Assembly: GCA_947457395.1 (NCBI GenBank)
Contig: CANGVA010000008.1
Coordinates: 1-64,000, forward strand
Reading direction: 5' to 3'
DNA: 64,000 nt
Source of the DNA: Bacteroidota bacterium
GTDB taxonomy: Bacteria > Bacteroidota > Bacteroidia > UKL13-3
The notes under the pieces were generated by a model. The model saw nothing but the letters and a program-made list of their open reading frames with translations, searched no databases and had not been told where the DNA came from. Both the position numbers and the translations under genes were made by a program. Below are positions 3,504 through 44,804 of the stretch, piece by piece (the first letter of the stretch is position 1; every line of letters starts with the position of its first letter).

Positions 3504-4598
3504 TTAAAAATATTTAATTGGATTCGTGTTTGTTTCTGATAAAAGGACGGCAAATGTAGGGATTTTTTTTAGAATAATATCCCTAATTAGCTCTGTAGTA
3601 AAAATTTCGCTCTCATAATGGCCAATATCAGCGATGAGTAGTCTGTTTTCCGCATCAAAAAACTCATGGTATTTAAAATCTGCTGATACATAGGCATCTG
3701 CACCGCTGGCAAGAGCTTTTTTAAGTAAAAAACTACCTGCTCCACCACACACCGCAACAGTTGCTATTTGCTTGTTTAAAGGGGTATACTTTACCATGCC
3801 AATGCCCATGCATTTCCTAAGGTGGGCTAAAAAATCCATTGGATCCATTGGTTCCTTGAGCTTGCCAATGAGTCCTGATCCTGCATCTTGCCATTGGTTA
3901 TCAAGCGAATATACTTCGTATGCCACTTCTTCATATGGGTGAGCATTTTGTAAGGCCTGTATAACCATTTGCTGTAAATGTGCAGGAAAAATTGTTTCAA
4001 AGCGGGTTTCCGGCTCGGTGTGCCGTTTGCCTTTCTCTCCAATTACAGGATTGCTTTCGTCATTGCCTCTGAAGGTTCCGGAACCAATGGTTTGAAAACC
4101 GCATTCATCATAGTTGCCTACATGCCCGGCTCCCGCAGCAAATAATGCATTACTAACGGCATCCATTGCGGCATGTGGCACAAAAGTTACCAGCTTTTTC
4201 AGTAACCCTGCTTTGGGGTCTAATACTTTCGTTTGGGTAAGTTCTAGTTTCTCGGCAATCTTCTTATTTACACCATTTCTAACATTATCCAGGTTGGTAT
4301 GTATGGCATAAATGGCAATATCATGTTTAATGGCTTTTATTATGGCTCTTTCAATATATGTTTTGCCATTAATTTTCTTTAAGCCACTAAAAATAATGGG
4401 GTGATGTGCCACAATTAAATTACAGCCTTTACTAATGGCTTCATCAATCACTGCTTCTGTTGAGTCCAAACAAACCAATACGGCCTTAACGGGAGTATCC
4501 GGGTTTCCGGTAATAAGTCCGGCATTATCATAGTGCTCTTGCAACATAGGATTTGCAAAAGTCTCCAGACATCTTGTAATATCGGCTATACTAACCAT
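3504..4598 (-). CDS. Nif3-like dinuclear metal centre protein
   Basis: Member of the Nif3/YbgI (DUF34) family, 364 residues: a toroidal hexamer with two metal ions per subunit; proposed roles include GTP cyclohydrolase I type 2-like or metallochaperone activity, none firmly proven. Metal ligands are visible in LIVAHHPIIFSG near residue 64 and in the C-terminal ADIGHYESE. The length, more than 100 residues above the short E. coli form, reflects the PII-like insertion between the two halves (about 130-230, FETIFPAH...HPYEEVAYEVY). The start ATG at 4598 gives the expected MVSIADITRCLE N-terminus. It is cotranscribed with the zinc-ribbon gene. Confidence 0.9.
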   Translation of the reverse strand: MVSIADITRCLETFANPMLQEHYDNAGLITGNPDTPVKAVLVCLDSTEAVIDEAISKGCNLIVAHHPIIFSGLKKINGKTYIERAIIKAIKHDIAIYAIHTNLDNVRNGVNKKIAEKLELTQTKVLDPKAGLLKKLVTFVPHAAMDAVSNALFAAGAGHVGNYDECGFQTIGSGTFRGNDESNPVIGEKGKRHTEPETRFETIFPAHLQQMVIQALQNAHPYEEVAYEVYSLDNQWQDAGSGLIGKLKEPMDPMDFLAHLRKCMGIGMVKYTPLNKQIATVAVCGGAGSFLLKKALASGADAYVSADFKYHEFFDAENRLLIADIGHYESEIFTTELIRDIILKKIPTFAVLLSETNTNPIKYF

Positions 4599-4702
4599 AG
4601 GTCTTTGTTTTACTTGTCAATAATAATAAAGTTTTTATTCAAACTGGCTATGTCTTTATCTCAATGCTGTTTACGTAATTACTGCAGCGAATATTGATTG
4701 GA

Positions 4703-5632
4703 TTACTCAATCAGTTCTATTGAACTCTTTTCCATTCCCCACATCATCACAGTTCGGTCGTCACTACAGGTAATGAATCGCTTTGCATCAAACCAGATTG
4801 CTTTGTTTACAGAACTTAGATGGCCATCATTTCTAGCCTTATCTACAACTTTGAGTAGCTTAAAGGTATGTGCATCCCAGATTTTTATTGTTTTATCCAT
4901 GCTCCCTGTAATAAACAGATCTCCCTCTGAATTAAACTGTACAGCATTTATATGTAAGTTATGAGCCGGAATGTTTTCTGCTAATGAGTCGAACTGTTCA
5001 GCTTGCCATTTCTTTAGCATTACATCTCTGCCGCCTGATATCAGCTCTTTTCCATTCACAGAAAAAGCGAGCGCAAATACCGAGTTTTCATGGGCTTTAT
5101 TTTCATGCAGCAATATGCTTTTTTGGGTATCAAATAATCTTATATAGTGATCACTGTATCCTACTGCAAACTTTGATTGAGTGGGGTGAATGGCAATTAC
5201 ACGTGCGCTTTTGTTCGCAAAATGCAGTGTCTCAAGTAACTTAAAAGTTTCCTTGTCCCACAGCATCACTTTGCCATCTCCGCCTGAAGTAATAATGCAT
5301 GAATCTATTTCTTTGATATCATATATCCCCAACTGATGTGCTTCTATATTTCTGATTTCTTTACCCTGCGCCAAATCCACCACATGCAGATTTCCTGCTG
5401 CTGTACCACACAACAACAATTGTTTATCTTTTAACAGATGTAAGCAATAAACCGGACGTGGCACCTGAACAAGTAATTTTCCATTTTGCTTGCTTTCTAT
5501 ATCCCATTCTACCACATATCCATCAGCACCCCCACTGTAAAAGGTATTGCCCTTTGTGGAATCACTTAAAGCAAAAATAGCATCCTTATGACCACTGAAA
5601 TGTGCTATTTTTGAAACAATCAATTTATTCAT
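4703..5632 (-). CDS. WD40-repeat protein
   Basis: Cytoplasmic beta-propeller of 309 residues with no signal peptide. Around seven WD40 blades are visible, with recurring GH...V and WD endings such as DGYVVEWDIE, DGKVMLWDKE, DHYIRLFDTQ, DVMLKKWQAE, DKTIKIWDAH and DRTVMMWGME. It is probably a protein-interaction platform; no enzyme domain is attached. I chose the ATG at 5632, giving MNKLIVSKIAHFSGHKD, because blade one begins right after it; codons further upstream lie antisense inside the divergent gene and give no blade sequence. Its start codon overlaps the divergent start by two bases (CATG). Confidence 0.85.
   Translation of the reverse strand: MNKLIVSKIAHFSGHKDAIFALSDSTKGNTFYSGGADGYVVEWDIESKQNGKLLVQVPRPVYCLHLLKDKQLLLCGTAAGNLHVVDLAQGKEIRNIEAHQLGIYDIKEIDSCIITSGGDGKVMLWDKETFKLLETLHFANKSARVIAIHPTQSKFAVGYSDHYIRLFDTQKSILLHENKAHENSVFALAFSVNGKELISGGRDVMLKKWQAEQFDSLAENIPAHNLHINAVQFNSEGDLFITGSMDKTIKIWDAHTFKLLKVVDKARNDGHLSSVNKAIWFDAKRFITCSDDRTVMMWGMEKSSIELIE
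5606..5613 (+). promoter_or_regulatory. -7 promoter box for the phosphopantetheinyl transferase gene
   Basis: TATTTTTG matches TAnnTTTG exactly and ends 17 bases before the ATG at 5631. It lies inside the first codons of the opposite WD40 gene. No clear -33 TTG is present at the usual distance. Confidence 0.45.
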
Positions 5633-6278
5633 GCCTGAACATCTTTTACATTCAATTGGCAAACATACGATATTAGCCGTCTGGAAAATAACTGAATCCA
5701 AAGAAGAATTGGTGCGTTTGTTGGGAACAGATTTGGTGGACTCCGGTTCACATAACAAAGACAGCATACATTGGCTGGCAAGCAGGTTGTTGATTAAGCA
5801 GGCGTTTCCGGGTGTTGAAGTTAGGCTGATGAAAGATGCATATAATAAGCCATCACTTACAGCAGGTAGTAAAGCCTATCATATTTCTATCACACACTCA
5901 CATCAAATGGCGGCTGTGCTCATCTCTTTGGAGAAACAAGTAGCTATTGATTTGGAGCTGCTGGATAGTAGAATTGAGCGTGTGAGTAAAAAGTTTATTG
6001 GTGAGGAAGAATGGAATTATCTTACACCATTGGCATCAGTGGAAATGCTCACAACAATTTGGTCTGCCAAGGAAACACTTTACAAATTGTATGGCAAAAA
6101 AGCACTCAATTTTAAGAAGCAATTATTTATTAAGCCTTTTTTGGTTCAGACAAGTCAAATATCAGGCAGCATTAAACTCTCTGACAAAGAGCATAATTTT
6201 GATATTGAAGTAAACAGGATTGATGCGTATGTTCTTACCTATTGCTTAGCTGATAAAAGCATATGGCAGGACATCTAA
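5631..6278 (+). CDS. 4'-phosphopantetheinyl transferase superfamily protein
   Basis: Transfers the phosphopantetheine arm of coenzyme A to a serine of a carrier protein. The 215-residue length fits the Sfp/AcpT-like two-domain type. Visible motifs are the SITHS strand (about residue 85), the magnesium site IDLE (about residue 105) and WSAKETLYKLYGKK (about 145-158), the family signature. No carrier protein or synthase lies nearby, so its partner is unknown; the housekeeping acyl carrier protein is the simplest candidate. The ATG at 5631 shares two bases with the start codon of the divergent WD40 gene. Confidence 0.88.
   Translation: MPEHLLHSIGKHTILAVWKITESKEELVRLLGTDLVDSGSHNKDSIHWLASRLLIKQAFPGVEVRLMKDAYNKPSLTAGSKAYHISITHSHQMAAVLISLEKQVAIDLELLDSRIERVSKKFIGEEEWNYLTPLASVEMLTTIWSAKETLYKLYGKKALNFKKQLFIKPFLVQTSQISGSIKLSDKEHNFDIEVNRIDAYVLTYCLADKSIWQDI
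5660..5667 (-). promoter_or_regulatory. -7 promoter box for the WD40 gene
   Basis: TATGTTTG on the minus strand matches TAnnTTTG, 27 bases before the ATG at 5632. It lies inside the first codons of the phosphopantetheinyl transferase gene, so the two divergent transcripts would overlap at their 5' ends. No -33 TTG is seen. Confidence 0.45.
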
Positions 6279-6330
6279 AGTTAACTACTAGCATTAATTT
6301 AGCTAGTCATTTTATTAAAACCGTTTATGG

Positions 6331-9051
6331 TTAGAGGGTAAAACTATCTTCAATAATTTGTGTCTGTTCCTTGGTGTGCACTTTTGAGAATCCGGTTGCG
6401 GGTGATGCACTGGCTTTTCTTGAAATGAGCTTAAGTTTAAAATTTTCTTCTCTTCTGAGCAGATATGTCCATGCTCCCATGTTTTTAGGCTCTTCCTGAA
6501 CCCAGTAATAGCTTGCCTGCTTGTATTTATCCATGACGGCATCCATTTGCTTTTCCGGCATAGGGAAGAGTTGCTCTACACGAACAATGGCAATATCTTT
6601 GCGTTGGTCTTTTTGTTGTTTCTCTAACAGGTCATAATATATCTTACCTGTACAAAACAATACACGTTTAACTTTTTTAGTTTCAGCGTATGCATCATCT
6701 ATCACTTCATTAAAACCGCCTTTTACAAAATCTTCCAGTTTACTTATGCATAGTGGATGGCGTAATAAGCTTTTCGGAGTCATAATAACCAGTGGTAATC
6801 GAAACGGTCTGTGTATTTGCCTGCGCAGTAAATGAAAATAGTTTGCAGGAGTTGTGATGTTGCATACCTGCATGTTGTAATTAGCGCATAGTTGCAGAAA
6901 TCGTTCAACGCGGGCTGAAGAGTGTTCAGGTCCCTGACCCTCGTAGCCGTGAGGTAACATTAATGTTAGGCCACTATACGTTTTCCATTTGGTTTCTGCA
7001 CTGCTAAGGTATTGATCTATGATGATCTGAGCACCATTTGCAAAATCACCAAACTGAGCTTCCCAGATAGTAAGATCGTTGGGTGTAGCCATAGAGTAGC
7101 CATATTCAAAACCCAACACTGCATATTCAGAAAGTAGGGAGTTAAAGAATTCAACTTTTGCTTTTTTATCACCCTCAAGGCTATCAAAAATATTATGCTC
7201 CTTTTCTGAGTCTTCCTGTTTAATAATAGCATGTCTGTGAGAGAAGGTGCCACGTTCACAATCCTGCCCTGTCATTCTAACAGCATGTCCTTCATTACTC
7301 AAAGTAGCATAGGCAATCAGTTCTCCCATTGCCCAATCATAGCTGTCGTTTTTTATCATATTTCTGCGATCATTGAACAGCTTCTCAATTTTATTAAATG
7401 CTTTGAAACCTTCCGGTATCTGGGTTATTTTTTCTGCCAGTTTCAGAAACACTTTTTTGTCAACTGCTGTTTCCGGTGATTGGTCAAAATCTTCCGGTTT
7501 GGCAGAACGAAAGCCCTCCCAGGTATTTCTGATAAAATTGGTTACAGGTGAAGCCTCTGCAGCCTTAGCTGTTTCAAGTTTTTGCTGCAGCATACTTCTG
7601 AATTCTTTATCCATCTCCTTGGCCAAATCAGCTTCAACGCTGCCTGCTGTAATTAACTTTTGGTTATAAATCTCACGCGGATTAGCATGCGCAGCAATTG
7701 CTTTGTAAAGCATTGGCTGTGTGAAGCGAGGTTCATCACCTTCATTATGTCCATACTTTCTATATCCAAGTAGGTCAATAAATACATCACTGTTAAACTC
7801 CTGTCTATATTCCATAGCAAGCCTTATGGCAAACACCACTGCTTCCACATCATCTGCATTTACATGAAATACGGGGCATAATGTAATTTTTGCAACGTCT
7901 GTGCAATAGGTAGAGGTTCTTGCATCGGTATAATTGGTAGTAAAACCTATCTGATTATTGGTTACAATATGCATGCAACCGCCAACAGAATACGCTTCTA
8001 ATCCTGCCATTTGTAAAACCTCATATACAACACCCTGTCCGGCAACAGATGAATCTCCATGAATTAAAATGGGACAAATGCTGTCTATATCCATGTTGTG
8101 TTTTCTTTCCAGTTTGGCTCTGGTAATACCTTTTACAACAGGGTTTACAGTTTCCAGATGCGATGGATTAGGAGAAAGGCTTAAGTGTACTTTTTTCCCT
8201 TTGGCCGTAGTAATTTCACTGGAATAGCCCAGATGATATTTTACGTCACCCTCAAATAGAGCTTCCTCATATGCTTTGCCTTCAAACTCTTTAAAAATGT
8301 CCTCATATGTCTTACCTAAAATATTGGCAAGCACGTTTAAGCGGCCCCGATGCGCCATACCCAGCACAAATTCCTTTACCTGTAATTCAGCGCCATATTG
8401 TATAACTGCATCAAGCGCAGGTATGAGTGTTTCAAGACCTTCCAGTGAAAAACGTTTCTGGCCTACAAATTTGGTGTGAAGAAAGTTCTCAAAAACAGTT
8501 GCCTGATTTAGTTTCGATAATATTTGTCTTTTTTCATCAATACTCAACTGTGGGGTATTTTTGCTACCCTCCATTTTTTTCTGTAACCAATCTAATTTTT
8601 TCGGATCCCTTATATAGGCAAATTCAGCACCTATACTTTGACAATAGGTTTGTTCTAAATGCGCTACTATGTCCTTTAGTTTGGCTGGGCCAATACCCAA
8701 TTCAATCCCGGCATTAAATGTTTTGTCAAGGTCAGCCGGTACCAACCCAAAGTTTTCAATGGCTAGGGTAGGGCTGTATTTTCTGCGTTCACGTACAGGA
8801 TTTGTTTTGGTAAAAAGATGACCACGTGTTCTGTATCCTTTTATCAGATTCAACACATTAATTTCCTTCACCATATCTTCAGAAACAGCTGCAGACTTGC
8901 TGTTTCCATTAAAGCGCTGATGTCCGAGATCAAAACCTTCAAAAAACTTTTTCCAGCCAAAGTCTACTGATTCTGGGTTGGCACGGTATTGCTTGTAAAG
9001 CTCATCTATAGCAGCTACATCAGCATTTGATACGTATGAAAAATCGTCCAT
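6331..9051 (-). CDS. sucA: 2-oxoglutarate dehydrogenase E1 component
   Basis: Thiamine-diphosphate E1 subunit that decarboxylates 2-oxoglutarate in the TCA cycle and hands succinyl groups to SucB. At 906 residues it is close to the usual length. Visible are the N-terminal helix that contacts E2 (FSYVSNADVAAIDELYKQY), the ThDP motif running from IHGDSSVAGQG to NNQIGFTTNY, and the transketolase-like half with EAQFGDFANGAQ and LPHGYEGQGPEHSSAR. I chose the ATG at 9051; a TTG at 9075 would only add eight residues. sucB is not adjacent, unlike in many Proteobacteria. It converges on the phosphopantetheinyl transferase gene. Confidence 0.96.
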   Translation of the reverse strand: MDDFSYVSNADVAAIDELYKQYRANPESVDFGWKKFFEGFDLGHQRFNGNSKSAAVSEDMVKEINVLNLIKGYRTRGHLFTKTNPVRERRKYSPTLAIENFGLVPADLDKTFNAGIELGIGPAKLKDIVAHLEQTYCQSIGAEFAYIRDPKKLDWLQKKMEGSKNTPQLSIDEKRQILSKLNQATVFENFLHTKFVGQKRFSLEGLETLIPALDAVIQYGAELQVKEFVLGMAHRGRLNVLANILGKTYEDIFKEFEGKAYEEALFEGDVKYHLGYSSEITTAKGKKVHLSLSPNPSHLETVNPVVKGITRAKLERKHNMDIDSICPILIHGDSSVAGQGVVYEVLQMAGLEAYSVGGCMHIVTNNQIGFTTNYTDARTSTYCTDVAKITLCPVFHVNADDVEAVVFAIRLAMEYRQEFNSDVFIDLLGYRKYGHNEGDEPRFTQPMLYKAIAAHANPREIYNQKLITAGSVEADLAKEMDKEFRSMLQQKLETAKAAEASPVTNFIRNTWEGFRSAKPEDFDQSPETAVDKKVFLKLAEKITQIPEGFKAFNKIEKLFNDRRNMIKNDSYDWAMGELIAYATLSNEGHAVRMTGQDCERGTFSHRHAIIKQEDSEKEHNIFDSLEGDKKAKVEFFNSLLSEYAVLGFEYGYSMATPNDLTIWEAQFGDFANGAQIIIDQYLSSAETKWKTYSGLTLMLPHGYEGQGPEHSSARVERFLQLCANYNMQVCNITTPANYFHLLRRQIHRPFRLPLVIMTPKSLLRHPLCISKLEDFVKGGFNEVIDDAYAETKKVKRVLFCTGKIYYDLLEKQQKDQRKDIAIVRVEQLFPMPEKQMDAVMDKYKQASYYWVQEEPKNMGAWTYLLRREENFKLKLISRKASASPATGFSKVHTKEQTQIIEDSFTL

Positions 9052-9072
9052 ATGAGTGAATGATAATTTGCG

Positions 9073-9080
9073 CAAAGATA
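9073..9080 (-). promoter_or_regulatory. -7 promoter box of sucA
   Basis: TATCTTTG on the minus strand matches TAnnTTTG, 21 bases before the sucA ATG at 9051. No TTG is seen 19 bases upstream, so only the -7 half is supported. Confidence 0.45.
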
Positions 9081-9219
9081 GTGTTTATAGCCACATGGCA
9101 TAATTTAGAGATAAAACCTATATGTCTGCTTTTTGCAATTAAATAATTAAAATATAGAGAGAAGGTGGAGGCTACTACTCCTACAGCATAATTTGATAAA
9201 AGGTATGATTTACGCACAT

Positions 9220-9251
9220 AAAAAAAAGACGCCCGTAGGCGTCTTTTTTTT
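9220..9251 (-). terminator. Intrinsic terminator of ald
   Basis: Fourteen-base perfect stem (arms 9220-9233 and 9238-9251) with the core GACGCC/GGCGTC, a CGTA loop and seven or more T on each side. It lies 18 bases past the ald stop codon and separates ald from sucA. The symmetrical T runs allow action in both directions. Confidence 0.9.
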
Positions 9252-9268
9252 ATGTTGCGAGGAATGAA

Positions 9269-10384
9269 TTATTTCAGAACCTCTTTAACTTCTGTATATT
9301 TTAAATTAAACGCTTCAGCAACACCTTTATAAACAACCTTGCCCTGAACCACATTTAATCCCAGTTTAAGTTCTTCATTTTCCACACAAGCTTTTTTCCA
9401 GCCTTTGTTGGCAAGCTGCAGTGCATATGGCAGAGTAGCATTAGTTAGCGCCAGTGTTGAAGTACACGGAACTGCACCCGGCATGTTGGCCACACAATAA
9501 TGAATAACTCCATCAATAACATAAATAGGATCTTGATGTGTGGTAGCTTTAGATGTTTCAAAGCAACCACCTTGATCAATTGCCACGTCTACCATTACGG
9601 TACCGGGCTTCATTGATTTAAGCATATCACGTGTGATAAGTGAAGGAGCTTTAGCCCCCGGAATCAACACTGCACCAACTATTAAATCAGCATGCTTTAT
9701 GGCTTCTCTCACGTTATATTCGTTAGAGTAAACCGTTTTTACATTTGCTGGGAGCAAATCATCCAGCTGGCGCAAACGTGGAAGTGAAATGTCCATCAAG
9801 GTTACATCTGCACCAAGGCCCGCAGCCATTTTAGCGGCCTGTGTGCCAACAATGCCACCACCTAATACCAATACATTGGCTGGTCTAACACCTGGAACTC
9901 CGCCAAGCAATATGCCACGGCCTCCCATTGGTTTTTCAAGATATTTGGCTCCCTCCTGAATACTCATGCGGCCTGCCACCTCGCTCATAGGAACCAGTAA
10001 AGGCAATGAACGGTCAGGTTTTTCAACAGTTTCATAGGCCAAACAAACAGCTTTGCTTTTTATCATTGCTTTAGTAAGCGGCTCATAAGAGGCAAAGTGG
10101 AAATAGGTAAACAATAGCTGACCTTCTTTTATAAGGCTATATTCTTGTTTGATGGGTTCCTTAACTTTAATAATCATTTCAGCCTTTTTATATACCTCAT
10201 CAATGGTTTTAAGCATGGTGGCTCCGGCTTTTTTATATTCTTCGTCACTAAACCCACTTCCAAGGCCTGCAGTTGCCTGAACAAATAACTTATGGCCTGC
10301 CTTTGTAAGGGCTGAAACACCTGCAGGAGTGAGACCTACACGGTTTTCATTGTTTTTAATTTCTTTTGGAACTCCAATAATCAT
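9269..10384 (-). CDS. ald: Alanine dehydrogenase
   Basis: Catalyses reversible NAD-dependent deamination of L-alanine to pyruvate and ammonia. The 371-residue length is standard. The N-terminus MIIGVPKEIKNNENRVGLTP carries the pyruvate-binding Arg/Lys set, the nucleotide-binding GGGIVGTQAAKMAAGLGA loop is near residue 175, and the segment VDVAIDQGGCFETSK carries the conserved Asp. The HYCVANMPGAVPCTST segment follows. It is a single-gene unit with its own promoter and a strong terminator. Confidence 0.96.
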   Translation of the reverse strand: MIIGVPKEIKNNENRVGLTPAGVSALTKAGHKLFVQATAGLGSGFSDEEYKKAGATMLKTIDEVYKKAEMIIKVKEPIKQEYSLIKEGQLLFTYFHFASYEPLTKAMIKSKAVCLAYETVEKPDRSLPLLVPMSEVAGRMSIQEGAKYLEKPMGGRGILLGGVPGVRPANVLVLGGGIVGTQAAKMAAGLGADVTLMDISLPRLRQLDDLLPANVKTVYSNEYNVREAIKHADLIVGAVLIPGAKAPSLITRDMLKSMKPGTVMVDVAIDQGGCFETSKATTHQDPIYVIDGVIHYCVANMPGAVPCTSTLALTNATLPYALQLANKGWKKACVENEELKLGLNVVQGKVVYKGVAEAFNLKYTEVKEVLK

Positions 10385-10407
10385 AATGGTTTGATTTTTA
10401 AGGTTGG

Positions 10408-10436
10408 CAAAAATAATACCTCTCCGTTCAAATCAA
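10408..10436 (-). promoter_or_regulatory. Promoter of ald
   Basis: On the minus strand TTTTG ending at 10434 is followed after 18 bases by TATTTTTG at 10415-10408. This matches TAnnTTTG exactly with near-ideal spacing, 23 bases before the ald ATG. Confidence 0.6.
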
Positions 10437-10483
10437 AATTAAGTTGGTAATAATAAAAAAGTGCGCAAACTCTTAGAAAATAC

Positions 10484-10513
10484 TTGCTTCGTATTGTATT
10501 TCTTATAAATTTG
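10484..10513 (+). promoter_or_regulatory. Promoter of the HU gene
   Basis: TTG at 10484-10486, a 19-base spacer and TAAATTTG at 10506-10513 match the Bacteroidota consensus in both boxes and spacing. The predicted leader is about 30 bases long and very AT-rich, typical of highly expressed genes in this phylum. Confidence 0.7.
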
Positions 10514-10548
10514 TCTTTGTAATTAAACCCTTAAATCAATTTAATACT

Positions 10549-10824
10549 ATGAACAAAGCAGAACTCATCGATGCTATCGCAGCAGAATCGAAACTTTCTA
10601 AAGCTGACTCAGGACGTGCTTTAGATGCAACAATCAACGCTATCTCTAAATCTTTGAAAAAAGGTGACAAGGTAGTTTTAATCGGATTTGGAAGTTTCTC
10701 AGTAGCTAAGCGTAATGCTAGAACAGGACGTAATCCTCAAACAGGTAAAACAATCCAGATTAAAGCTAAGAAAGTTGCAAGATTTAAACCAGGTGCAGAG
10801 TTAGCTAAAACAGTTAACAAGTAA
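10549..10824 (+). CDS. HU-family nucleoid DNA-binding protein
   Basis: Histone-like dimer that bends and compacts DNA without sequence preference. It has 91 residues, the standard size. The N-terminal helices MNKAELIDAIAAES are followed by the beta arm with the GFGSFSV turn and the signature ARTGRNPQTGKTI, whose Pro intercalates into DNA, and by a basic C-terminus (ARFKPGAELAKTVN). Codon use looks biased to abundant codons. It has its own consensus promoter and terminator, so it is a strong single-gene unit. Confidence 0.96.
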   Translation: MNKAELIDAIAAESKLSKADSGRALDATINAISKSLKKGDKVVLIGFGSFSVAKRNARTGRNPQTGKTIQIKAKKVARFKPGAELAKTVNK

Positions 10825-10843
10825 TCAATCAACGAATGTTACG

Positions 10844-10870
10844 AAAAAGGCTGCCATTGGCAGCCTTTTT
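10844..10870 (+). terminator. Intrinsic terminator of the HU gene
   Basis: Perfect 12-base stem (arms 10844-10855 and 10859-10870) with the core GGCTGCC/GGCAGCC, a three-base loop and a T run. It is 19 bases past the HU stop. The A run on the other side could also stop transcription from the converging DUF1573 gene. Confidence 0.9.
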
Positions 10871-10892
10871 TATTAGGATATGTTTAAAAAAA

Positions 10893-11327
10893 TTAATCTG
10901 TATTTTGGTTCCTAACAGGGGAAACAGGTTCAACCGGCATGGGTGATACATTTCCCTTTATTGTTAGACTGATGTCTCCATTTTTAGCATTAGATTTTAC
11001 AGTAATGTATTTTTGAAAAGTTCCGGGTCTTCCGTGTGAGTTATATACAGCCTTCACTTTTGCTTTGGCTCCGGGCATGATGGGCTCCTTTGGCCATTCA
11101 GGTGTCGTACATCCGCAAGATGGTTGAACAGCACTCAGAATAAGGGGCGATTTACCAGCATTGCTGAAAACAAATTCATAGGTAGCAAGGGTTCCTTCTT
11201 TTATATTGCCAAAATCATATTCTGTTTTTTCAAACCTAATTTCCGAGCTATTTTCTGTTTCAGTTGATTGGGCAAAAGTTAGCAAACCTGAAAGCAGCAA
11301 TCCGGTGATTAGAAATATCTTTTTCAT
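10893..11327 (-). CDS. DUF1573 family secreted protein (copy 1)
   Basis: Secreted 144-residue protein with a signal peptide (MKKIFLITGLLLSGLLTFAQS) and one DUF1573 domain, an immunoglobulin-like/ASH-type beta sandwich. Conserved features are FEKTEYDFGNIKEGT near the start, the pair of cysteines in PSCGCTTPEW and the final strand set GDISLTIKGNV. Function is unknown; the family is very common in Bacteroidota. It lies just after a second DUF1573 gene, 57 bases downstream of it on the same strand, and the two proteins are alignable along their length, so they probably arose by tandem duplication. Confidence 0.88.
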   Translation of the reverse strand: MKKIFLITGLLLSGLLTFAQSTETENSSEIRFEKTEYDFGNIKEGTLATYEFVFSNAGKSPLILSAVQPSCGCTTPEWPKEPIMPGAKAKVKAVYNSHGRPGTFQKYITVKSNAKNGDISLTIKGNVSPMPVEPVSPVRNQNTD

Positions 11328-11384
11328 TTTTTTGCGTATAATTAATTTAATGAAACCAGCTGTTTAAAAAACTTATTCAACAAC

Positions 11385-11804
11385 TTAGTTTGGTGTTACT
11401 ACCGTTGGTACTTTTACCTCACCTTTCAATGTTAAAATTACTGTATTTCTTTTAGCATTTGAAAAAACAGTAACATTTTTATTGAATGGTCCTACAGCTG
11501 CTGCATTGTAAGTTGCTTTAATGTAACCGGTTTTTTTAGGTGGAATTGGCTCTTTACTCCATTCGGGAGTTGTGCAACCGCAAGAAGCAGACACATTACT
11601 TATAATTAAAGGCTCTTTACCTGTGTTAGTGAAATAGAACATGTAGGTTGCAGGCTGATTTTGTGGAATTACGCCAAAATCGTGAATTTCTTTTGTGAAA
11701 CTGATTTCAGCCTGATTTTTGTTCTCGGCAGGTGCCTGATTTTGAGCATTTGCCAATGATAAACCAACAAAGGCAAAGCATAAGGAGATGATTATTTTTT
11801 TCAT
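11385..11804 (-). CDS. DUF1573 family secreted protein (copy 2)
   Basis: Paralogue of the following gene: 139 residues, signal peptide MKKIIISLCFAFVGLSLANA, one DUF1573 domain with FTKEIHDFGVIPQNQPA, the cysteine pair in SASCGCTTPEW, and the EPIPPKKTGYIKATY strand. The two copies share the CGCTTPEW.KEP block exactly but differ elsewhere, so the duplication is not recent. It is probably exported to the periplasm or cell surface; no lipobox or sorting domain is present. It is transcribed away from the E1 dehydrogenase gene. Confidence 0.88.
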   Translation of the reverse strand: MKKIIISLCFAFVGLSLANAQNQAPAENKNQAEISFTKEIHDFGVIPQNQPATYMFYFTNTGKEPLIISNVSASCGCTTPEWSKEPIPPKKTGYIKATYNAAAVGPFNKNVTVFSNAKRNTVILTLKGEVKVPTVVTPN

Positions 11805-11972
11805 TTTAATTAGATGTGTTTAAATTTAGTTTAATTACGTTTCAAATATTGTTCCAATTCTCAAACAGATTTCGAAGCTATATTCCCAAACGCAATAATC
11901 CAAATAATAGCTGCATTCGCGGCAAATATTAATGAAAAATTAAGCATATTAGAGAATAATGCTGTCACATTA

Positions 11973-37307: not shown

Positions 37308-37576
37308 CTTTTGCTTATCTTATTGCCGGATATGGCTCTTTGTCGGCTGCACTTAAATCTGCTAATCTCTTCACTTCTTTTGTATCTGTGTTTTTGTGAT
37401 ATACCTTGATTTACTCTCTTGCGCCAAAGCCTCCAGCTGGATGGTTTGAGTTGTTGACGCATTAATCTCACCACATCGGCCTCCGTTAATCCAAATTGCA
37501 GATGTATTGCCTCAAAGGGAGTCCTATCTTCCCAGGCCATCTCAATTACTCTGTCTATTTGTTCGGCTGAAAGCAT
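37304..37576 (-). CDS. TIGR03643-family protein
   Basis: Protein of 90 residues, helical and basic. The conserved start is SAEQIDRVIEMAWEDRTPFE, followed by QFGLTEADVVRLMRQQLKP and SSWRLWRKRV, a possible helix-turn-helix. The tail is Lys/Arg-rich (KRSEEISRFKCSRQR). Family function is unknown, but it recurs near cryptochromes. I chose the ATG at 37576; an ATG at 37618 would add 14 residues overlapping the cryptochrome start. The stop overlaps the DUF2256 start by four bases. Confidence 0.8.
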   Translation of the reverse strand: MLSAEQIDRVIEMAWEDRTPFEAIHLQFGLTEADVVRLMRQQLKPSSWRLWRKRVNQGISQKHRYKRSEEISRFKCSRQRAISGNKISKR

Positions 37577-37616
37577 GAATCCTAAACATCTTACATTTAT
37601 GAATGTTTTAAGTATC

Positions 37617-39148
37617 ATGGATAAACAAAAGGTAGTTGTGTTATGGTTTAAGCGTGACCTGCGTATAACAGATCACAGGCCTGCAGCTATGGCAATAGCT
37701 CACGGATTACCGGTTCTTTGTCTATATGTATATGAACCTGATTTATTGCAGCATCCCGATAGTGATATTAGGCATTGGCGCTTTGCACACCAAAGCATCG
37801 GGCAGTTGGATCAGTACTTACAAACATTCCATCAACGTGTGCTTGAGTGGTATGGCAATGTGCTTGATGTCCTCGAGTATATTCAGCGTCATTATTCGAT
37901 TGAAGCAATCTACAGTCATGAAGAAATTGGGGTTGGGATAAGCTTTGAAAGAGATAAAGCTGTAGCAAAATGGTGTCATCATCATGGGGCAAAATGGATT
38001 GAATCTCCTACCAATGGTATTATTCGAGGTTTAAAAAGCAGAAAGAGCTGGCAAACCAAATGGTATGATACCATGCGGGCGGAAATCGTTCATCCGGATT
38101 GGATACATATAAGGCCCGCACCAATTACTTTGCTAAACAATAAAGATTTTGAATTGCCGCCTGAATTTAAAGCAGCTGTTGCAAGGCATGAGCCACTTTT
38201 TCAATTCGGAGGGTTTCTCCATGCACGTGAGGTGTTGGCATCTTTTCTTCATAATCGCATATGGCAATACAGTTCATCCATTTCAAAACCTCATGAAAGC
38301 AGAGATGGATGCAGCAGGCTATCAGCACATTTAGCTTGGGGTAATTTGAGTATAAGGGAGGTTTATCAGGCAGCAGTTTCTGCAGCGGGGCAATACCCAC
38401 CAAAAAGCAGGCAAATACAGTTTTTTATTACCAGACTATTTTGGCACTGCCACTTTATACAAAAGTTTGAATCGCACAGCACAATGGAGTTTGAAAACGT
38501 AAATAAGGGATATGACCTGATACGGAACGATCGAAATGAATTTTATATAGAGGCTTGGCGTAATGGCCAAACCGGTTATCCGCTGGTGGATGCCAGCATG
38601 GAATGCTTGCGCCAAACAGGTTATATTAATTTCAGGATGCGGGCTATGCTCGTAAGTTTTCTCACCCATAACTTATGGCAGCACTGGGAAACCGGGGTAC
38701 ATCATCTGGCATCTCTTTTTTAGATTACGAGCCGGGTATTCATTACCCGCAATTTCAGATGCAGGCAGGTACCATGGGCGTGCACACCATCAGAACTTAT
38801 AATCCGGTGAAACAAGCGAAGGAGAAAGACCCATCGGCCGTATTTATAAAGACCTGGCTTCCTCAATTAGCAGCATTACCTTTACCATTTGTGCATGAGC
38901 CATGGGAAATGAGCATGCAGGAACAAAAAAAGTATGGTGTTTTGCTTGGGGTGGATTATCCTGAGCCAATTATTGATTATAAAATGAGTGCAGCAGAGGC
39001 TTCCAGACGCTTATGGGAAATGAAGCGGCAAAAACAAGTAAAAGCCAATAATGCTGAAGTGCTGGAGAAACTAAGTTTGCGAAAATCTGATGCTGAGCAT
39101 CCAATTAAGCGTCAAAAAAGCGTAGATTTAAATTTTAAACTCTTTTAG
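37617..39148 (+). pseudogene. Cryptochrome/photolyase-family flavoprotein, broken by a -1 frameshift
   Basis: Blue-light FAD protein. The first frame gives 368 residues with the photolyase start KVVVLWFKRDLRITDHRPAA, FQFGGFLHAREVL, and the FAD-binding region (SAHLAWGNLSIREVYQ, NEFYIEAWRNGQTGYPLVDASM). It stops at TAG 38721-38723, right after THNLWQHWETGVHHLASLF. The -1 frame continues without a gap: LDYEPGIHYPQFQMQAGT to 39148. One extra T in the six-T run at 38716-38721 would restore a 510-residue protein, the normal length. The cause may be a real deletion, a sequencing error or recoding. The start is ATG 37617 because the family begins there. Confidence 0.85.
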
Positions 39149-42166: not shown

Positions 42167-43534
42167 TTATCTGGGAGTAGCATTTTCCAGGCTGATTTGT
42201 TCGTCACCTTTTTGATAAGGCACGTACGTTACAATTAACTGAAACATTTCATCTGTGGTTCTCATGCTTCCATTTCTTTCCCTAATTTCCTGAGGGGGAT
42301 GAAATGGATTGTTGGGATTGGCGGTAGTGTTATCATATACTCCTTCTACAAATATCTTTGTGCCTCTTGGTAAATGAAGTAGTTTTTTGAATTGATAAAA
42401 ATATTGCCATCTGAAATCCCAATTATGAATACGAATCAGCGGCACGGTATCTCCGCTTGGTTTAATGGCATATACCAGATAACTCTTACCAATCAAATGC
42501 ATATGCGGGACGATGCTGATAAGTGAGAGGTCTTCCGGCAAGATGGTTTTGATACGAAATGTTTTTACGCTACCTGCAGGAATAATCAATTCCGGCTCAA
42601 CCGGGGCAATACCCAAGGTGCCCAATTGGAATTCAGCAACCGGTCGGGAAGGGGGAGTTGCGCTAAAATATATTTTGTAATATGAGGAGTCAACTGCATC
42701 AACCGGTGAAGGGCCATAATGCATATCGTTTAAGTAAAATACATTTTTCTTTTTTAGTTTATAACCACCAATTTCTTTGGGATAAAAGCTAAACAATGCT
42801 CCCGGGAGGTAATTGCTTACACTTGGTGTCATAGGGGCATAACTGTCATCGTCCTGAAGCAGCCCAAGTTGATTATGTATGGTTTGACTGTTAGCCTGGT
42901 CCTGGTTGATATAATATGCACCCTCATGAAGGTTTTTCTTCTTGCCCTCATCATATTGTATCAGGTGCGTGTTAACATGGTGAACTAACTTTTTATTACC
43001 GGGCACAAATTCTATAGCGCGTACATAGGTGTCTTGAGGTAGTTCAAAAGGAATTTTCATAACAAGGAATAAATCCTTGTTATTCCCTTTAATCTTAATC
43101 TTAGGAACATTCACAATCAAATCGGGTTCGCCCAGTTGTACATATTGCTTTACAGATTCAATGGTATAAGTTTTCAGGCTATCGCCAACAGGCATACCTG
43201 AATCAACCCATTTCTCAATCAGTTTTATTTCATCATCGGATAGCACCATTTCATTGGCAAAATGGCTATAGGTTGGATCGGCAGGCCATGGTGGCATCAG
43301 TCGTTCCTTCACCATATATTTAATTAGCTTAGCTTTCTTTGCAACATCCTGATAAGTAATCAGGCTAAATGGGGCAGCCTCTTCCGGCATATGGCATTTG
43401 CTACAATATTTATGAATCACAGGGGCCACATGCTCTGAGAAGGTAATATCCTCCTTCTCACTTTTGTGTGAACCTGTATTGCAAGCTGAAACGCAAATTG
43501 ATAATATTATCAGAATACTTATTCTATAAAACAT
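42167..43534 (-). CDS. Lipoprotein with cytochrome c and copper-monooxygenase-like domains
   Basis: Predicted lipoprotein of 455 residues (lipobox VSAC, Cys at 18). Residues about 30-115 form a c-type cytochrome with the haem site C44-S-K-C47-H48 and a Met-rich stretch MPPWPAD. Residues about 140-445 match peptidylglycine alpha-hydroxylating monooxygenase: H185-H186 and H272 (MHYG) correspond to one copper site, H344-x-H346 (PHMHLIGKS) and M430 (TTDEMF) to the other. So all six copper ligands are present in the right order. Electrons from the haem may serve the copper sites. The substrate is unknown. The start overlaps the redoxin stop by 16 bases. Confidence 0.78.
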   Translation of the reverse strand: MFYRISILIILSICVSACNTGSHKSEKEDITFSEHVAPVIHKYCSKCHMPEEAAPFSLITYQDVAKKAKLIKYMVKERLMPPWPADPTYSHFANEMVLSDDEIKLIEKWVDSGMPVGDSLKTYTIESVKQYVQLGEPDLIVNVPKIKIKGNNKDLFLVMKIPFELPQDTYVRAIEFVPGNKKLVHHVNTHLIQYDEGKKKNLHEGAYYINQDQANSQTIHNQLGLLQDDDSYAPMTPSVSNYLPGALFSFYPKEIGGYKLKKKNVFYLNDMHYGPSPVDAVDSSYYKIYFSATPPSRPVAEFQLGTLGIAPVEPELIIPAGSVKTFRIKTILPEDLSLISIVPHMHLIGKSYLVYAIKPSGDTVPLIRIHNWDFRWQYFYQFKKLLHLPRGTKIFVEGVYDNTTANPNNPFHPPQEIRERNGSMRTTDEMFQLIVTYVPYQKGDEQISLENATPR

Positions 43535-44064
43535 CCTATTGCTTTTGTTTTTTTAACTTGTATGGGTTTGTTAAGAACAAGGGCTGACATTGCATCCTTT
43601 AAATCATGTGCTGTTATTACACTTCTTTTTTTGCCAAGCTCATACGCCCAGTTATCAATTCTTCCGGCATATCTCAACTGCTCGCTGTTATCTATAACAA
43701 ATACCTCAGGTGTAATTCGGGCTTTAAAATACCCTGCTAGTTTCCCTTGTCTGTCCATATATACAGGAAAGGAAATTTGATAGTTTTCTTTATAGGAACG
43801 GACTTCTTCGGGCCTAAAATCATTGCCTGGTATCACGCCAATCATTTGCACACCTTTGCTGCTAAATTCTTTGTTTAGATTGTTTAAAGTAAGCGAGTAG
43901 CTTTGGCACAGCGGGCATTCAGGTGAAAGAAAAATAAAAACAGTTGCTTTGTTTTTTTCTGATGGTTTCAGGATAACAGGCTTACCTTCAATAGTAGTTA
44001 GGGCATCTTTGGGGAAGACTCCGTTAAGCATAAAGCCAGTAAGTAGTATGAGCAGTGTTTTCAT
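43519..44064 (-). CDS. Secreted redoxin/thioredoxin-like protein
   Basis: Protein of 181 residues with a signal peptide (MKTLLILLTGFMLNGVFPKD) and a redoxin fold (ATVFIFLSPECPLCQSYSL, with C50-x2-C53). The strand FPVYMDRQGKLAGYFKARITPEVFVID has the cis-Pro loop (TPEVFV). The C-terminal tail ends GCFIE, with an extra Cys, and reaches into the start of the cytochrome/copper gene by 16 bases, so translation of the two is coupled. It may deliver copper or keep thiols reduced for the partner. The start is the ATG at 44064; a TTG at 44073 is less likely. Confidence 0.82.
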   Translation of the reverse strand: MKTLLILLTGFMLNGVFPKDALTTIEGKPVILKPSEKNKATVFIFLSPECPLCQSYSLTLNNLNKEFSSKGVQMIGVIPGNDFRPEEVRSYKENYQISFPVYMDRQGKLAGYFKARITPEVFVIDNSEQLRYAGRIDNWAYELGKKRSVITAHDLKDAMSALVLNKPIQVKKTKAIGCFIE

Positions 44065-44135: not shown

Positions 44136-44804
44136 ATGGTCTTAAGGAATCAAATACTGCTGTTGTTTGTTACGTTCATATGGCAGTTCTCTTGTTCGCA
44201 ACCATCTAATCCTAGCCAGACAAATACTGTTCAAATGACAAACGCAGATATAAATCAACAAATAGATACCGCTGTATTTGGTGGCGGTTGCTTCTGGTGT
44301 GTGGAAGCAGTTTATCTTCAACTAGAGGGAGTGGTCAAGGTTGAATCGGGGTATAGTGGCGGGGATGTTAAAAATCCTACCTATCGCGAAGTGTGTTATG
44401 GTAAAACAGGTCATGCCGAAGTGGTACGCATCTTCTATCATCCGCATGAAATAAGTTATAAAGATTTATTACAGGCATTTTTTCTGAGTCATGATCCAAC
44501 TACCTTAAACAGGCAGGGAAATGATATTGGTACACAATATCGATCTGTAATTTATTATTCTAACAAGCAGCAATTAGATGAAGCGGTTGCTGTAATTAAT
44601 CAATTAAACTTGTCTGGAGCATTTAGCAGTAAAATTGTTACGGAAGTTTCACCGCTGGCTGAATTTTATGTTGCAGAAGATTACCATCAGAATTATTATA
44701 ACCTGAACAAAGAGGAACCTTACTGCCAGTTTGTAATTAGGCCCAAACTTGAAAAATTTGAAAAGGTTTTTAAGAGTAAGTTAAAGAAGAAGACAGCTGA
44801 GTAA
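44136..44804 (+). CDS. msrA: Peptide-methionine (S)-S-oxide reductase
   Basis: Repairs methionine-S-sulphoxide in proteins. The 222 residues include a signal-like N-terminus (NQILLLFVTFIWQFSC) and then the catalytic domain with FGGGCFWCVEAVY, where the first Cys is the catalytic one. Other blocks: VESGYSGGDVKNPTYREVCYG, GHAEVVRIFYHP, and YRSVIYYSN. The domain is exported, so it most likely acts in the periplasm; the Cys at the end of the hydrophobic stretch is a weak lipobox (the -3 residue is Gln). It converges with metF four bases away. Confidence 0.95.
   Translation: MVLRNQILLLFVTFIWQFSCSQPSNPSQTNTVQMTNADINQQIDTAVFGGGCFWCVEAVYLQLEGVVKVESGYSGGDVKNPTYREVCYGKTGHAEVVRIFYHPHEISYKDLLQAFFLSHDPTTLNRQGNDIGTQYRSVIYYSNKQQLDEAVAVINQLNLSGAFSSKIVTEVSPLAEFYVAEDYHQNYYNLNKEEPYCQFVIRPKLEKFEKVFKSKLKKKTAE

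Follow-up and report, generated by a model that had tools for sequence, protein, structure and literature searches.

A bacterial PHM/DBH-like dicopper domain joined to a putative cytochrome c and recurrently encoded beside a redoxin

Results

A redoxin gene overlaps a gene for a cytochrome/copper lipoprotein

The window, by which we mean the whole 64,000-nucleotide stretch of DNA analysed, belongs to a freshwater Bacteroidota genome (2.5 Mb, 34 contigs). It carries two overlapping genes, encoding a secreted redoxin and a lipoprotein with haem-c and copper regions, next to a divergent gene for MsrA:

42167..43534, reverse strand: cytochrome/copper lipoprotein gene, 455 aa, with signal/lipobox, haem-c, and PHM/DBH-like domains
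43519..44064, reverse strand: secreted redoxin gene, 181 aa, ATG at 44064 and stop at 43519; product of AhpC/TSA-Redoxin fold, TlpA/PRX-like type (Pfam, solved relatives)
43519..43534, reverse strand: gene overlap of exactly 16 bases
43481..43483, reverse strand: lipobox Cys18, invariant in 38 orthologues
43391..43405, reverse strand: haem-c attachment motif C44-S-K-C47-H48
43295..43297, reverse strand: M80 of MPPW, likely distal haem ligand
42977..42982, reverse strand: H185-H186, CuH (CuA) ligands, aligned to DBH H262/H263
42719..42721, reverse strand: H272, third CuH ligand, aligned to DBH H333
42497..42505, reverse strand: H344-M-H346, CuM (CuB) ligands, aligned to DBH H412/H414
42245..42247, reverse strand: M430 of (T)DEM, CuM Met ligand, placed by order and EM motif
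43906..43917, reverse strand: C50-P-L-C53 motif of the redoxin
43531..43533, reverse strand: redoxin Cys178, in the GCFIE tail
44136..44804, forward strand: MsrA, secreted lipoprotein, divergent to the redoxin gene (Pfam PMSR, 9e-65)

Both genes and their overlap are as described in the first-pass annotation, to which we add the strand; its lipobox is also present, with C18 as the cysteine, and its residue numbers (C44-S-K-C47-H48, H185, H186, H272, H344, H346, and M430) are correct. A longer redoxin ORF, starting with TTG and reaching to 44073, is not needed, and the ATG at 44064 was taken as the start; the redoxin N-terminus is a hydrophobic segment. The ATG of the lipoprotein gene spans the redoxin Gly177-Cys178 codons, and the 16-base overlap suggests translational coupling of the two genes. 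Within the lipoprotein, the haem-c domain covers residues ~29–126 and the PHM/DBH-like dicopper domain residues ~134–445. Searches of the locus for RNA families found none, and promoter and terminator scans there gave chance-level matches only.

Elsewhere in the window, a photolyase/cryptochrome-like gene (37575–39148, forward strand) is broken into two ORFs (382 and 157 aa) that lie in different frames. In one close relative (locus L003) this gene is a single 516-aa ORF (10386–11936), and we ascribe the split in the window to a frameshift or an assembly error.

The copper domain has the fold of PHM and DBH

PHM (peptidylglycine alpha-hydroxylating monooxygenase) and DBH (dopamine beta-hydroxylase) are copper enzymes of animals that serve in hormone amidation and noradrenaline synthesis, respectively, and hold two separate copper sites ~11 Å apart. 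We built a structural model of the 455-aa lipoprotein from seven sequences, with middling confidence (pLDDT 62, pTM 0.59). A Foldseek search with this model placed PHM entries on top (E-values of 1e-10 to 1e-8), with DBH among them, and VIA-align gave Z-scores of 17.6 to DBH and ~15–17 to PHM over ~255 residues, compared to 8.1 for the best unrelated fold. The model has the two-jelly-roll arrangement of PHM, and a predicted structure, which the first-pass annotation had proposed as a check of its monooxygenase reading, thus agrees with that reading at the level of fold, with PHM and DBH above all other matches.

Detecting this relationship from sequence required a profile of diverse members, because a search of solved structures with the single lipoprotein sequence gave no match and a profile of 38 close orthologues gave chance matches only. 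The profile of 28 diverse members matched human DBH (4zel) in the Protein Data Bank with an E-value of 1.1e-8. A profile restricted to the copper domain again found DBH among solved structures but missed PHM, and the likeness to PHM is therefore reached by fold only. Pfam Cu2_monoox_C matched 38 of 38 orthologues and 28 of 28 diverse members, all with E <1 and the best at 1e-9; the score of the window lipoprotein (17.9 bits) lies under the curated cut-off of 23, whereas a paralogue in the same genome scores above it (26.6 bits). Searches of plasmid and viral collections found no relative of the lipoprotein.

The copper ligands are invariant

The copper ligands of DBH are H262, H263, H333, H412, and H414 (PMC3197665). 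In the profile alignment, the HH, HY, and HxH motifs of the lipoprotein pair with chain-index positions 223/224, 294, and 373/375 of DBH 4zel, and the offset of +39 that we infer between chain index and residue number fits all five ligands. The alignment ends before DBH M487, and M430 is therefore equated with DBH M487 and PHM M314 by order and the EM motif only.

Conservation was assessed among 117 homologues (median pairwise identity, 36%). All five copper histidines are invariant (117/117), as is M430 (116/116), and all six ligands are invariant in the 38 orthologues; the HH, H, HxH, M pattern that had been read from the window copy holds throughout these homologues. Every other histidine and methionine of the lipoprotein varies (for example, H190 is kept in 52/117, H220 in 21/114, and H412 in 18/116), apart from those of the haem domain described below; only the six copper ligands, CxxCH, and M80 stand out as invariant. 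W372, W376, Q377, Y380, and N402 are near-invariant in the copper domain. By its modelled fold and aligned ligands, the lipoprotein belongs, as a bacterial member, to the superfamily of type II copper monooxygenases that includes PHM and DBH (Pfam Cu2_monooxygen and Cu2_monoox_C), and the PHM/DBH-type domain proposed in the first-pass annotation is supported by fold matches, a DBH profile match, and ligands in register.

The lipoprotein is distinct from PHM and DBH

The peptide carboxylate in PHM is bound by residues that we take to be R240, N316, and Y318. By spacing from the ligands, the equivalent positions lie two residues ahead of the first CuM histidine and two and four residues past the methionine; the lipoprotein has V342, Q432, and I434 there. 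The R/N/Y triad occurs in 0 of 117 homologues, and arginine is never found at position 342. In the copper domain, no alignment column has cysteine in >30% of the 117 homologues, and 56 have no cysteine there at all; the disulfide bonds known from PHM and DBH (those of DBH are listed in PMC3197665) are therefore absent. Because both the peptide-binding triad and the disulfides are lacking, the lipoprotein is, on sequence grounds, neither PHM nor DBH and should not be named a peptide-amidating PHM; its substrate is probably not a peptidyl-glycine.

The lipoprotein thus shares with PHM (1phm, 1sdw) and DBH (4zel; Pfam PF01082 and PF03712) the two-jelly-roll fold and has its CuH and CuM ligands in matching order and register, with sequence homology detectable to DBH. 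In contrast to these animal enzymes, it is bacterial and exported, has no conserved cysteines or disulfides, lacks the peptide-binding triad of PHM, and carries a fused haem-c domain in place of the DOMON domain of DBH.

The N-terminal domain is a putative cytochrome c

The CSKCH motif reported in the first-pass annotation is of the CxxCH type, which stands without exception in the 107–108 homologues that have the N-terminus. M80, which that annotation did not include, is invariant (117/117). Pfam Cytochrome_CBB3 matched 36 of 38 orthologues (best 8.9e-5), with the window copy under the cut-off. A model of this domain (98 residues, pLDDT 70) has the order helix-CxxCH-helix-Met-helix; a fold search with it matched no solved cytochrome. 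The haem-c assignment is a prediction from the CxxCH motif, the Cytochrome_CBB3 matches, and the invariance of these residues.

The redoxin has a conserved C-terminal cysteine

The redoxin matched Pfam AhpC-TSA (6.5e-16; 58.9 bits, cut-off 26) and Redoxin (3.2e-14), and its closest solved relatives, 2ywi (5e-23), 3u5r, and 2cvb, align from end to end, C-terminal Gly-Cys included; the redoxin fold assigned earlier is supported. A CxxC motif had also been noted. It is present in the window copy, but its second cysteine varies: C50 and C178 are each found in 28 of 28 partner redoxins, whereas C53 is found in 23 and is serine in the other five. A homologue in which redoxin and enzyme are fused has valine at the C53 position and keeps the equivalent of C178. 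As neither the fused form nor several of the partners retain C53, the redox pair is likely to be C50/C178 rather than CxxC. We rejected the possibility that the GCFIE tail is a mere by-product of the gene overlap, as the tail is kept where genes do not overlap, in the fusion, and in 2ywi, 3u5r, and 2cvb.

These solved proteins (PRX-like/TlpA-type, GC-I motif) share with the redoxin a nucleophilic cysteine and the C-terminal Gly-Cys. Unlike them, redoxins of the window type are exported, share a locus or a single polypeptide with the cytochrome/copper enzyme, and often have CxxC, where the solved proteins have CPxV. Best NCBIfam matches were to ResA/StoA/DsbE thiol reductases, with ResA at 36 bits against a cut-off of 170; the CxxC that is expected to be invariant in a ResA/CcmG-type thiol reductase is not kept throughout the 28 partner redoxins. 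The redoxin profile also reaches the thioredoxin domain of the MsrA/B proteins 2jzr, 2fy6, and 2h30. The genome itself has four members, so the redoxin family at large is not bound to the copper enzyme; redoxins are also very common across the phylum.

A redoxin gene recurs upstream of the copper enzyme gene

In 58 of 117 surveyed loci (57 by script, plus L010, whose redoxin the ORF filter missed), a redoxin gene adjoins the copper enzyme gene, always upstream and, in 56 of the scripted 57, on the same strand. Genes overlap by 16 bases in 17 loci and by four bases in ten. Redoxin presence is scattered across the homologue tree, changing 18 times, gains and losses counted alike, compared to ~39 times in shuffles. 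One relative of the window's own class (G324; loci L066 and L151) encodes redoxin, cytochrome, and copper domain in a single 599-aa chain; a search of 395 genomes with this chain gave no further fusion among the matches listed. Redoxin-cytochrome-PHM fusions may also occur in Planctomycetes. This recurrent adjacency, the overlaps, and the fusion show that the coupling of the two genes noticed in the window is real. The redoxin-cytochrome order suggested for survey recurs, always with the redoxin upstream, but need not be present: no redoxin gene adjoins about half of the homologues, among them a clade of 21 members, and we therefore rejected the redoxin as an essential partner.

The MsrA gene is the sole PMSR-family member of the genome. 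It lies divergently beside the redoxin gene in 9 of 18 members of the window clade, even though the outer neighbours differ. MsrA may be a lineage-specific third member of the system; as a general partner it was rejected because this adjacency is limited to one clade.

Paralogues and relatives occupy other neighbourhoods

The genome has a second copy of the cytochrome/copper enzyme (C3:18265-19518), within a paralogous cluster at 3816–11147 of locus L080 (G000:C3:13000-25000). This cluster contains genes for a PhoX-like protein with a type IX tail, a MauG/MbnH-like di-haem protein, a Rieske protein, and a metallo-beta-lactamase-rhodanese protein, and relatives have similar clusters (L081, L117, L118, L122, and L130). 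The PhoX-MbnH arrangement is common to six loci, two of which also have a Rieske gene that directly abuts or overlaps the copper gene on its upstream side; in the genome's own paralogous cluster, the Rieske protein fills the place of the redoxin. Thus, MauG/MbnH di-haem clusters neighbour the cytochrome/copper paralogue in six loci, whereas none is present at the window locus.

Another clade has SusC-SusD-redoxin-copper enzyme-UnbV clusters; at L085, L090, L116, and L119, SusC-SusD clusters include an FG-GAP/UnbV protein of ~1,100 aa. From the SusC-SusD context, the enzyme may be connected with the uptake of a substrate across the outer membrane. A type IX sorting tail is present on longer members, 9 of the 28 diverse ones. 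The cell-surface location first proposed for the window system is supported for these relatives only; the window lipoprotein may face the periplasm or the outside. Tandem duplicates of the cytochrome/copper enzyme gene are present at L125, L145, and L146. Across the class, 108 of 198 sampled genomes encode the enzyme.

Discussion

We favour, as the more probable account, an O2-dependent copper hydroxylase that is fed electrons by its own fused cytochrome c, with the product of the upstream gene supplying or maintaining the reductant. Homology, fold, invariant ligands, haem residues, and a recurrent upstream redoxin are observed; the electron flow and the redoxin role are proposed. Electrons would enter singly at the haem from a periplasmic donor and would pass to CuH (H185/H186/H272) and then to CuM (H344/H346/M430), which would bind O2 and hydroxylate a C-H bond of an exported substrate. 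That the haem feeds the copper sites is plausible from the fusion. Animal PHM and DBH use ascorbate; in the proposed model the haem would stand in for it, and no ascorbate would be needed. The product of the upstream slot (the redoxin here, and a Rieske and/or MauG/MbnH-like di-haem protein in the paralogous cluster) would supply or maintain reducing power, a role supported by the finding that this slot holds a redoxin, Rieske, or di-haem protein. A thiol donor gives up two electrons and a haem accepts one, so the two would not make a textbook pair. Cellobiose dehydrogenase with LPMO is a cytochrome-linked oxidative system in which a cytochrome domain likewise feeds electrons to a copper O2 enzyme, but its folds are unrelated and its haem b acts in trans, whereas the lipoprotein would use haem c in cis.

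The redoxin might instead be a maturation or repair factor that maintains CxxCH thiols or Cu(I) in the reduced state during assembly, or that feeds MsrA in the repair of M80 and M430 when these Met ligands are oxidised. Its best NCBIfam matches, the reach of its profile to MsrA/B thioredoxin domains, the position of the genome's only MsrA beside it in half of the clade, and the many homologues without an adjacent redoxin are in keeping with such a role. However, the MsrA adjacency is restricted to that one clade, CcmG and ResA depend on a CxxC that is CxxS or CxxV in several partner redoxins, and the fused form of one relative points to a stoichiometric partner more than to a transient one; on balance, we regard maturation or repair as rather unlikely.

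Three other readings concern the enzyme itself. Electrons could flow outward, with the dicopper domain oxidising a substrate as a dehydrogenase and the haem passing electrons to the respiratory chain. A fused cytochrome would serve either direction and gene order alone does not decide, but the invariant Met-type CuM site and the HH/H CuH site are those of the O2-activating hydroxylases PHM and DBH, and we know of no PHM-fold dehydrogenase, making this arrangement improbable. A non-catalytic lipoprotein that binds or stores copper with its ligands kept would be in line with the MbnH-like di-haem proteins of the paralogous clusters, as the MbnH family is associated with copper-binding partners in methanobactin loci; storage does not need a fused haem, however, and two full copper sites with near-invariant W372, W376, Q377, Y380, and N402 are expected of an active enzyme, so that we consider storage very improbable. 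A genuine PHM, hydroxylating the C-terminal glycine of peptides for amidation, would have the same fold and ligands, yet the absence of the triad from every homologue, the lack of a lyase (PAL) domain in the lipoprotein, and the failure to recognise one among the neighbour genes examined make this identity extremely improbable.

For the family as a whole, we tentatively propose, at a little under an even chance, that the hydroxylase described for the window typifies widespread bacterial exported dicopper hydroxylases that use an on-board cytochrome c rather than ascorbate, have an upstream plug-in slot for a redox partner, and act on several separate substrates. Several substrates are suggested by the distinct neighbourhoods, which include SusC/SusD-UnbV, PhoX-MbnH-Rieske, MsrA, and type IX secreted forms.

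PHM and DBH have been studied almost wholly as animal enzymes. The domains of the lipoprotein were already known; their combination and its breadth appear to be new. According to a structural survey (PMC8812541), the PHM family is widespread in eukaryotes and its clan partner PNGase F in bacteria. The bacterial branch described here has the full catalytic ligand set, physically joined to a haem domain. We found no description of this enzyme family in the limited open-access literature searched, which is weak evidence of absence. The cytochrome-fused copper enzyme may be a widespread, unstudied O2-using enzyme that is powered via a cytochrome and not by vitamin C. If active, it would represent a new way of powering PHM/DBH-type chemistry, would be a C-H oxidation of a new, exported kind among environmental Bacteroidota, and would offer a simpler system for the long-standing question of how electrons get to the two coppers of PHM and from one to the other.
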